Assembly: GCA_023483915.1 (NCBI GenBank)
Contig: JAMDEO010000150.1
Coordinates: 1-36,652 of the forward strand
Length of the DNA: 36,652 bases
Direction: 5' to 3'
DNA from: Actinomycetota bacterium
GTDB lineage: Bacteria > Actinomycetota > Thermoleophilia > RBG-16-64-13
A program made the translations under genes and the position numbers. Shown here piece after piece: positions 22,692 to 26,225 of the stretch. The notes under the pieces are model-generated. The model searched no databases and was not told the DNA's origin. It saw nothing but the letters and a program-made list of their open reading frames with translations. Position 1 is the stretch's first letter, and the number at the start of each line of letters is the position of its first letter.

Positions 22692-25600
22692 ATGGGACCA
22701 GGCATGGCCGGTGAGGAGTACTATCGCGATCGCTGGCATCATGACAAGGTCGTCCGCTCCACTCACGGCGTGAATTGCGGCGGGTCATGCTCATGGGACA
22801 TATTTGTCCGCGACGGACTCATCACGGGGGAACAACCGGCGGGGGACTATCCCCAGACGGGGCCCGGTTGTCCCGATTACGAGCCCCGTGGCTGCCCGCG
22901 CGGAGCGGTCTCGTCCTCCTATTCCTACAACAGCGGAAGGATAAAGCACCCCTATGCCCGCGGTGTGCTTCTGGAACTCTGGCGCCGGGCTAGGCAGACC
23001 TACGACGACCCGGTGGAGGCCTGGGCGAGCATTGCCCGAGATCCCGGGAAAACTGCCCTCTATGTCGCCTCGCGGGGCCATGGCGGGTTCGTCAGGATTT
23101 CGTGGGACGAAGCCTTGGAAATCTGCGCGGCTGCGCACGTATTCACCATCAAAGAATACGGTCCCGATCGAGTGGCCGGTTTCAGTCCCGCCCCGGCGGC
23201 GTCCATCGTGTCGCAAGCAGCGGGGTCACGCTACCTCTCCCTTACCGGGGGTGCCCAGCTCTCCTACTACGACTGGCATGGAGATTTGCCCCCGGCTTTC
23301 CCTCAAGCTTTCGGAGACCAAACCGACTCACCGGAATCCGCCGACTGGTGGAATGCCGGTTTCCTGATGCTCTGGGGGACAAACCTCCCTCAGACGCGAA
23401 CCCCCGATGCCCACTTCATGGTCGAGGCGCGTTACAAAGGGCAAAAAGTAGTGGCAGTCTCGCCCGACTATGCTGAGCACGTGAGGTTCGCCGACCGTTG
23501 GTTGCAGGTGCGCCCCGGCCAAGACGCCGCGCTGGCAATGGCAATGGGACACGTGATATTCAAGGAGTTCTTTGTGGATCGCCAGGTGCCGTACTTCGTG
23601 GAGTACGTACGCACATACACGGATATGCCATTCCTGGTGTCCTTGGCCGAACACGGAGGCCATCACGTTCCCGACCGTTTCCTCACTGCGGCAGATCTCG
23701 GCGACCAGAAGGCCGAAGCTATCTGGATGCCGTTGGTCTTCGATGAGCGGACTTCACAGCCGTCGGCACCCAATGGGACACAGGGCTTTCGCTGGGCTGA
23801 GGCCGGAGAGGGGCGATGGAACCTCGATCTGGGTGACATAAGCCCGGCATTGAGTCTTCTCGGGCTCTCAGACAAGCAAGTGGACCTGGCGCTGCCGCGT
23901 TTTGACGCGGAGACCCCCGTCATCATGCATCGTTCGGTTCCCGCGTTGAAGATCAAAGGACACTTGGTCACTACCGTGTTCGACCTGCTGCTTGCGCAGT
24001 GTGGCGTCCAGCGGGGCGAGACGCTTGGTGAGTGGCCGCGGGGATATGACGACAGCCACGAGCCTTTCACCCCGGCGTGGCAAGAGCGGTTGACAGGAAT
24101 TTCCGGCGCGGCGGTCGCCGCGACTGCACGGGAGTTCGCTCGAAATGCAGAGCTCACGCGTGGCCGCTCGATGATCGCGACGGGCGCAGGGCTAAGTCAC
24201 TGGCATCACTCTGACCTGGCTTACCGGGCGATCACCACTGTCCTTGCGGCCTGCGGTTGTATCGGGCGCAATGGAGGCGGGCTCGCTCACTACAGTAGTC
24301 AACAGAAGGTCGCGCCGCTAGCCGGGTGGGCCATGGTATCGACGGCCCGCGACTGGGTAAGCGCAGCACGGCAGGTCTCGGCCACCACGTGGTTCTACCT
24401 TGCCTCGGATCAGTGGCGCTATGAGACTCGCATGGCGGGCGAAGATGAGTCGCCCTTAGCCAAAGGGCTTTTGAAAGACTTGGCGCCTGCCGACGCGTTG
24501 GTCAAGGCCGCTCGGTTGGGGTGGCAGGTACCTCAGCCGGCGTTCGATAGGAATCCCCTCAAGCTTGCTACCGATGCGGCTGCCGCCTATCGGGAGGGGA
24601 TGTACCTAAACGACTACTTGGCGGGTCAGCTCAGGGACGGAAGGCTTAGGTCGGCAGCCGAGGATCCGGACGGCCCCCCAAACTGGCCCAGGGTCCTGTT
24701 CGTCTGGCGGGCCGACCTGCTTGGAAACTCAGCCCAGGGTCACGGATATTTGCTGCGCCACCTGTTGGGCGCCGGGGAGGATGGTCTCTCCGCTGAAGAG
24801 GCTCCTGAGGGTCGACGCCCACGCGACGTGGTGTGGAGAGAATCCGCACCGGTGGGCAAGCTTGATCTGCTTGTCGATCTCGATTTCAGGCTGACCACGA
24901 CCGCCGCGTTCGCGGACATCCTTCTTCCGGCAGCGGGCTGGTATGAAAAGTGTGACCTCTGCAGCACCGACATGCATCCCTTCATCAATTGTCTCAATGC
25001 CGTCATCGCTCCGCCTTGGGAGGCAAGGACCGATTGGGACGCCTTCCGCGAGCTGGCCCGTAAGTTTTCACGCCTGGCCGAATCACATCTGGGCATCCTG
25101 GAGGACCTGGTTGCGATGGCCCTGGGGAGGGACACGCCTGCGGAGGCCTCCCAGCCTCTGGGGCGAGTGCGCGATTGGCACGACAGCGGCGCGGCGGCAA
25201 TTCCGGGACAAACGATGCCACATGTTGTGGTGGTGAGACGCGACTTTCCGGCAGTCTACAGCATGTACACCACCCTGGGCCCAAGAGCAGACGACGTGGG
25301 TTGCAGCGCGAAGGGCTTGGGCTGGGACGTGGTACCGGAGGTGGAAATGCTGCGCACCATCACCGGAACCGCAGGTGGGGGAGCGGGTGCCGGCCGGCCG
25401 CTGCTCGAGGACGACCGGCAGGTCATAGAGGCCATTCTTGCGCTATCTGGTTCAACCAACAGACGGGCAGCTTTCGCCGGGTTTGAAGCCCTCGGCAAGA
25501 GGGTGGGGCGAGACTCGTGCGACCGGGCCTGCGGTGATCCCGGTCAGCGGATCACCTGGGCAGACGTCCAGGCTCGTCCCCAAAGAGTGTACGGGAGCGC

Positions 25601-26225
25601 GGAATGGTCGGGGGAAGAATCGGCGGACCGTTCTTACTCTCCTTTCTCAAGGAATGTCGAGCGGTTGGTTCCCTGGCGCACGCTGACCGGGCGAATCCAG
25701 CTCGCGATAGACCATGAGTGGTTTAGCGAGCTGGGAGAATTCTTGCCCGGATATCGACCTCCTCTCAAGTCCGGCGACCTGAGGTCCGGACAGCTTCAGT
25801 CCGGCGAGCCGGGAGTCATGCTGAGGTATCTCACCCCGCATTCGAAGTGGTCGATCAACTCCACCTACAGTGACGATCCTCTCCTGCTGACCCTTTTCCG
25901 CGGCGGACCGGGCGTTTGGCTCTCACCTGATGACGCTTCAACGATTGGAGTTCGCGATAACGAGCGAGTCGAGATGCGGAACAGGAACGGGAGGATGGTC
26001 TGCCTGGTGGTTGTATCGCCTCGAATCCCCCGCGGGGTGTGCTATCTGTATCAAGGAGCCACACCCAACTTCCTCACAAGGATAGTCCTCAAACCGACTC
26101 ACCTCGTCGGGGGCTATGCTCAGCTGTCGTTCGCGCCCAACTACTACGGCTGCACCGGTGCCCAGCGAGACGAGCAGGTGACGGTTCGTCGCTATCCGGA
26201 CGGTCCAGAAGGTGACTTGACATGA
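22692..26225 (+). CDS. narG: Respiratory nitrate reductase alpha subunit-like molybdoenzyme (NarG family)
   Basis: RDRWHHDKVVRSTHGVNCGGSCSWDIFVRDGLIT...DYPQTGPGCPDYEPRGCPRGA; YYDWHGDLPPAFPQAFGDQTDSPESADWW (Asp ligand region); WRADLLGNSAQGHGYLLRHLLG; C-terminal KPTHLVGGYAQLSFAPNYYG. Confidence 0.93.
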   Translation: MGPGMAGEEYYRDRWHHDKVVRSTHGVNCGGSCSWDIFVRDGLITGEQPAGDYPQTGPGCPDYEPRGCPRGAVSSSYSYNSGRIKHPYARGVLLELWRRARQTYDDPVEAWASIARDPGKTALYVASRGHGGFVRISWDEALEICAAAHVFTIKEYGPDRVAGFSPAPAASIVSQAAGSRYLSLTGGAQLSYYDWHGDLPPAFPQAFGDQTDSPESADWWNAGFLMLWGTNLPQTRTPDAHFMVEARYKGQKVVAVSPDYAEHVRFADRWLQVRPGQDAALAMAMGHVIFKEFFVDRQVPYFVEYVRTYTDMPFLVSLAEHGGHHVPDRFLTAADLGDQKAEAIWMPLVFDERTSQPSAPNGTQGFRWAEAGEGRWNLDLGDISPALSLLGLSDKQVDLALPRFDAETPVIMHRSVPALKIKGHLVTTVFDLLLAQCGVQRGETLGEWPRGYDDSHEPFTPAWQERLTGISGAAVAATAREFARNAELTRGRSMIATGAGLSHWHHSDLAYRAITTVLAACGCIGRNGGGLAHYSSQQKVAPLAGWAMVSTARDWVSAARQVSATTWFYLASDQWRYETRMAGEDESPLAKGLLKDLAPADALVKAARLGWQVPQPAFDRNPLKLATDAAAAYREGMYLNDYLAGQLRDGRLRSAAEDPDGPPNWPRVLFVWRADLLGNSAQGHGYLLRHLLGAGEDGLSAEEAPEGRRPRDVVWRESAPVGKLDLLVDLDFRLTTTAAFADILLPAAGWYEKCDLCSTDMHPFINCLNAVIAPPWEARTDWDAFRELARKFSRLAESHLGILEDLVAMALGRDTPAEASQPLGRVRDWHDSGAAAIPGQTMPHVVVVRRDFPAVYSMYTTLGPRADDVGCSAKGLGWDVVPEVEMLRTITGTAGGGAGAGRPLLEDDRQVIEAILALSGSTNRRAAFAGFEALGKRVGRDSCDRACGDPGQRITWADVQARPQRVYGSAEWSGEESADRSYSPFSRNVERLVPWRTLTGRIQLAIDHEWFSELGEFLPGYRPPLKSGDLRSGQLQSGEPGVMLRYLTPHSKWSINSTYSDDPLLLTLFRGGPGVWLSPDDASTIGVRDNERVEMRNRNGRMVCLVVVSPRIPRGVCYLYQGATPNFLTRIVLKPTHLVGGYAQLSFAPNYYGCTGAQRDEQVTVRRYPDGPEGDLT
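25767..25811 (+). repeat. Three 15-nt in-frame tandem units in narG
   Basis: aagtccggcgacctg / aggtccggacagctt / cagtccggcgagccg = KSGDL / RSGQL / QSGEP. Confidence 0.75.

Follow-up and report, generated by a model that had tools for sequence, protein, structure and literature searches.

The window, as we call the whole stretch of 36,652 nucleotides analysed here, encodes a NarG homologue that has lost the pterin-pocket histidines H1098 and H1163, and it lacks the genes for the NarG partners NarJ and NarI. The narG and narH genes are best explained as encoding a maintained, soluble NarGH derivative that works outside quinol-nitrate respiration, probably at a lowered Mo potential. For this enzyme we predict Mo-bisPGD, the iron-sulphur clusters and another substrate. 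We hold this explanation tentatively, as its likelihood falls just short of even.

The NarG homologue is of full length. Its score with the TIGR01580 profile lies above the curated cut-off of 1084 bits, and its best match among solved structures was E. coli NarG. Residues are numbered as in mature E. coli K-12 NarG and their frequencies were counted over 63 other NarGs. The E. coli numbering used in the sequence-only reading proved correct on comparison with K-12 narG. The coordinates and residues of that reading were exact: S719N, H1098N, the absence of H1163 and H1184P, with H1092 and D222 kept.

D222, the FS0 ligands, H1092, H1098 and H1163 are invariant in the 63 NarGs. In the window protein H1092 is present, residue 1098 is Asn and H1163 is deleted, which departs from the pterin residues of NarG. 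Position 719 is Ser in 59 of the 63 sequences and Thr, Gly or Ala in the remainder, and position 1184 is Asp in 29, His in 24, Glu in 8 and Asn in 2. By these frequencies, the exceptional losses are those of H1098 and H1163; position 1184 is commonly variable and S719 is nearly fixed. The claim that the pocket had been substituted as a set thus holds for the two histidines and is weakened for 719 and 1184. Variation at 1184 is standard among the NarGs of the group, whereas H1098 and H1163 are kept throughout.

Between E. coli residues 1162 and 1191 the window protein has 13 residues, compared with 30-31 in all 63 relatives, and the loss, at first estimated at about 17-18 residues, was counted as 17. 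The motif YQGATPNFLTR starts at 26049, with its Gln at 26052-26054 and its Pro at 26064-26066. The Gln had been taken for the replacement of H1163. The His is indeed absent and no alignment restored it, but its pairing with this Gln is arbitrary, and H1163 is either deleted or replaced.

Beyond the residues first noted, the active site is also altered at F216, Y220, G579, E581 and N715 (Table 1). The protein also retains R94, N52 and the R107-E793 salt bridge (R108-E794 in Met numbering). Of the 225 strictly invariant NarG columns, 22 are broken and 203 intact, and the next ingroup sequence breaks 7. In the Moco-lid region (E. coli residues 1090-1190), 7 of 22 invariant columns are broken versus 15 of 203 elsewhere (Fisher p = 0.002). 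E. coli NarG, on an equally long branch, has zero breaks in this region. Cysteines found only in the window NarG lie at E. coli positions 481, 808, 911, 983 and 987 and in a CxxC motif (24951-24962) directly behind the conserved E793-K794. An AlphaFold model from a two-row alignment (the window protein and L033) reached a pLDDT of 28.5 and was set aside.

Table 1. Features of the cyd-nar locus, with positions in the window
Feature	Position	Strand	Remark
cydA, cytochrome bd subunit I	20023..21681	+	alternative start possibly 20113
cydB	21678..22691	+	4-bp overlap with cydA
narG-like catalytic subunit, 1177 aa	22692..26225	+	TIGR01580 1361 bits; E. coli NarG 1174 bits
Truncated NarG N-terminus MGPGMAGEE	22692..22718	+	tail present in other NarGs absent
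FS0 ligands H49, C53, C57, C92 kept	22764..22895	+	alignment with other NarGs
F216Y and Y220H beside kept Mo ligand D222	23265..23285	+	elsewhere F216 63/63, Y220 62/63, D222 63/63
V578S G579S Q580 E581Q (VGQE to SSQQ)	24294..24305	+	G579 and E581 63/63 elsewhere
N715D and S719N	24714..24728	+	N715 63/63 elsewhere; S719N codon 24726-24728
E793 kept (salt-bridge partner of R107), then new CxxC at 795-798	24945..24962	+	
H1092 kept, pterin-bridging His	25839..25841	+	63/63 elsewhere
H1098N	25857..25859	+	His in 63/63 others
Junction of in-frame 17-residue deletion removing H1163	26049..26054	+	alignment
H1184P	26064..26066	+	otherwise His, Asp, Glu or Asn
narH-like iron-sulphur subunit, 493 aa	26222..27703	+	4-bp overlap with narG
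Gly-rich insertion in NarH	26456..26605	+	none in relatives; alignment
NarH W220H, FS4 [3Fe-4S] position	26945..26947	+	Trp invariant in others
Transketolase	27822..29921	+	3' of narH, in the place taken by narJ and narI in relatives

The genes of the locus follow each other in the order cydA, cydB, narG, narH, transketolase, 6-phosphogluconate dehydrogenase and glucose-6-phosphate dehydrogenase. The TAG stop of cydB abuts the ATG of narG in the same frame (22689-22694), and a single readthrough at this stop would yield a CydB-NarG fusion. The source genome is a draft MAG of 3.2 Mb in 242 contigs, 77% complete, and the finding rests on this one locus in it.

Neither narI nor a TIGR00684 match for narJ was present in the operon or in the 77% complete genome, and no NarK or NrfA scored over the cut-off in the genome. 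A second NarG was not found either; about two dozen further matches were obtained, many of them to other genes of the DMSO reductase family. Only two chaperones of the NarJ/TorD type (PF02613) were found in the genome; they lie on two other contigs, C137 and C152, together with further molybdoenzyme-family genes. On another contig (G000:C20, L006) the frame for a formate dehydrogenase alpha subunit has one in-frame TGA within NLDHCART*HAPTVAGL, at the usual selenocysteine position, and this subunit is likely a selenoprotein.

In all 12 relatives whose surroundings were read, narJ and narI follow narGH. Among the 67 further genomes with NarG in the class sample, 66 have NarI, and in the exception the contig ends 1.5 kb after narG. 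The N-terminal tail of E. coli NarG touches NarI and binds NarJ (PMC10609526). This docking tail of respiratory NarGHI is absent from the window NarG, and the window NarH has lost its C-terminal tail. NarH keeps 15 of 15 cysteine ligands and scores 509 bits with TIGR01660, just under the cut-off of 524; over both subunits, 19 of 19 cluster ligands are kept. The tail losses and the changes in NarH are the traces to be expected once the membrane and chaperone partners are gone. With tblastn, a NarJ ORF matched positions 26230-26430; the match falls over narH in a different frame and is not taken for a remnant.

The coding constraint on the pair was assessed from its changes. No stop codon and no frameshift was found in the 1670 codons of narGH. 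A branch with neutral missense changes should contain about 83 stops. Only a few per cent of the branch can therefore have been neutral. The changes followed the conservation gradient, with 9% of the invariant columns changed versus 60-78% of the more variable ones, and GC3 and codon-position composition were normal and matched the neighbouring genes. Judged from these patterns, narGH has been selected as protein over nearly all of the branch, though a very recent inactivation is conceivable.

In the same-family genome G005 the order is had-tetR-cydA-cydB-gnd, and narGH is absent. From this synteny, narGH (with tkt) was probably inserted behind cydB, or lost in the G005 lineage, and the idea of an old functional unit of cydAB and narGH was dropped. 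In a tree of NarG C-termini the window protein was sister to that of the same-family G017 (support 97/94), with branches of 1.0 versus 0.19; G017 retains the histidines 1092, 1098 and 1163 and has narJI. In the full-NarG tree the sisters were G019/G039, with branches of 0.96 versus 0.33, and for NarH the branch was 0.97 versus 0.3. The cydA tip (0.11 versus 0.41) was not accelerated. Since the cydA branch is short and those of NarG and NarH are long, the acceleration, read from these trees, is confined to narGH. It had been missed in the sequence-only reading, as had the absence of NarI and NarJ, the lost tails of both subunits and the insertion behind cydAB.

Searches of 99 near relatives, 399 class genomes, 397 phylum genomes, one contig collection and a plasmid collection brought up no relative with the same pocket set. 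The closest NarG among the relatives searched is 61% identical and has the canonical pocket; the best identities were 55% in one scan of a contig collection and 54% in the plasmid collection. As no second sequence shares this state, the pocket changes are neither datable within the branch nor shown to be fixed.

Other observations were made among the relatives. Five genomes of the same family (G003, G004, G011, G012 and G013; L021-L023, L026 and L027) carry a second NarG clade with the motifs CQRGCSF and DLPNASPE.WGEQT, which we take to be NxrA-like. In G003 and G004, narJ, narI and two narK-like genes lie near it. Locus L104 (G004:C6) encodes two alpha subunits of the type II DMSO reductase family. 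With TIGR03479 they score 901 and 810 bits, just below the cut-off, and they come closest to perchlorate reductase and ethylbenzene dehydrogenase. In L044 and L030/L032 (G088) narG lies in two frames, with the break at about residue 534, either by a frameshift or by an assembly error.

The sequence-only reading had proposed an altered pterin environment, and the loss of H1098 and H1163 supports this well. According to a review, the Mo potential of E. coli NarG shifts by -88 mV in H1163A, -101 mV in H1098A, -36 mV in H1184A and -143 mV in H1092A and by about 0 in S719A (PMC10673323). From these shifts, whose additivity is not established, loss of H1098 and H1163 would be expected to lower the potential, and the window enzyme probably has a lowered Mo potential. 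The proposal of a different potential is thus plausible in the downward direction. The suggestion that both pterins are tricyclic is not supported. The distal pterin is pyran-opened in ethylbenzene dehydrogenase and in perchlorate reductase (PMC10673323). In our alignment the H1163 column holds Phe in the former and the 1184 column has no His in the latter, so that tricyclic pterins do not follow from absent histidines. The NarGs of the group also have no conserved H1184. A stronger version of our reading has a soluble, NarJ- and NarI-free molybdoenzyme derived from NarGH with a new substrate or direction, in which selection dismantled the pterin proton relay (H1098, H1163 and H1184) and so reset the Mo potential; the enzyme would then be a naturally occurring analogue of the E. 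coli pocket variants. We consider this version rather doubtful.

Compared with E. coli NarGHI and the actinobacterial narGHJI products, NarG and NarH are likewise full length and share all Fe-S ligands, D222, H1092 and R107-E793. They differ in the missing NarI, NarJ, NarG N-terminal tail and NarH C-terminal tail and at the altered residues (S719N, H1098N, H1163 with the 17-residue deletion, H1184P, F216Y, Y220H, E581Q and W220H of NarH). Ethylbenzene dehydrogenase EbdA (2ivf) belongs to the same type II DMSO reductase family and likewise lacks a His in the 1163 column, with its own distal pterin pyran-opened. Unlike the window protein, EbdA retains the 1098 His, is part of a periplasmic three-subunit enzyme and is of much lower similarity. 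Perchlorate reductase PcrA (4ydd), also of type II, shares the 1184 column without His, but retains His at 1098 and 1163 and has no comparable 17-residue deletion. NuoG-type proteins are a precedent for the MopB fold without Moco (PMC10609526); the window protein has lost some pterin residues but, in contrast to these, keeps the cofactor-pocket anchors D222, H1092 and R94 and the FS0 motif.

The sequences show a pair that descends from an ordinary narGHJI operon of the group and probably moved in behind cydAB. With the loss of narJ, narI, the NarG docking tail and the NarH C-terminal tail, narGH went on to evolve at three to five times the rate of its sisters under maintained coding selection. 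From the kept ligands, the product would most likely be a soluble cytoplasmic NarGH heterodimer with Mo-bisPGD and five Fe-S clusters. In E. coli there is no quinol route without NarI. Electrons would no longer come from quinol via NarI, and FS4 would exchange them with a soluble partner; no such partner was identified. By analogy with the E. coli variants, the loss of H1098 and H1163 would remove the pterin proton relay, lower the Mo potential and shift the enzyme from efficient nitrate reduction toward another oxo-transfer substrate.

The maturation of such an enzyme has to be considered, as E. coli NarGH made without NarJ has neither FS0 nor Moco, although the apoprotein is stable and retains the NarH clusters (PMC10609526). 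The absence of narJ, this stable E. coli apoNarGH and the enrichment of invariant-site breaks in the Moco-lid region would all fit a NarGH that receives no Mo-bisPGD and serves, like NuoG, as an Fe-S electron-transfer protein or scaffold while its empty pocket drifts. We regard this as unlikely. The kept FS0 ligands, D222, H1092, R94, N52 and R107-E793 speak against it, with the reservation that in E. coli NarJ is required for FS0 as well, and so do the 203 of 225 intact columns. The kept FS0 ligands, D222, H1092 and salt bridge argue that Moco insertion continues here. An enzyme with Moco could also still be a nitrate reductase, soluble and cytoplasmic, whose pocket changes are tolerated and only retune its rate or potential. 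The score above the TIGR01580 equivalog cut-off, the kept D222, H1092 and clusters, the normal variation at 1184 and the soluble E. coli NarGH without NarI that has been studied (PMC8840923) agree with this. The invariance of H1098 and H1163 elsewhere, the drop of 88 and 101 mV in H1163A and H1098A (PMC10673323) and a genome without NarI, NarK or NrfA over the cut-off make it quite unlikely.

That the pair is recently relaxed or dying and heads for a pseudogene after losing its membrane partners is improbable. The lost narJI and tails, the three- to five-fold acceleration, the loss of several invariant residues and the low-complexity NarH insertion would be in line with decay, but the lack of stops and frameshifts against the neutral expectation, the conservation gradient, the complete cluster ligands, the normal GC3 and the intact 4-bp coupling are not. 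The head-to-tail cydA-cydB-narG-narH arrangement with overlapping or abutting ends might indicate a new respiratory unit with the cytochrome bd oxidase. This is very improbable, as adjacency looks like an insertion when G005 has cydAB followed by gnd without narGH, cydA shows no co-acceleration and we know of no Fe-S docking partner of bd oxidase. An assembly or sequencing artefact would have to be conceived for a fragmented and incomplete draft MAG analysed from its assembly alone, and is hardly credible with substitutions spread across the gene, intact ORFs, flanks partly syntenic with G005 and a uniform composition.

That molybdoenzymes are tuned to their different substrates by the surroundings of the pterins rather than by the Mo ligands has been argued mostly from engineered variants of a few enzymes. 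The window offers a natural case, where two pocket histidines that are invariant in 63 relatives are gone, the Mo ligand and the clusters stay, and the membrane anchor and the chaperone are lost. The pair has probably taken up a different job. If the protein carries Moco, pterin tuning would become testable in evolution, and the maturation of a molybdoenzyme without a dedicated chaperone would be shown. If it does not, a NuoG-like step would have been caught in a nitrate reductase.
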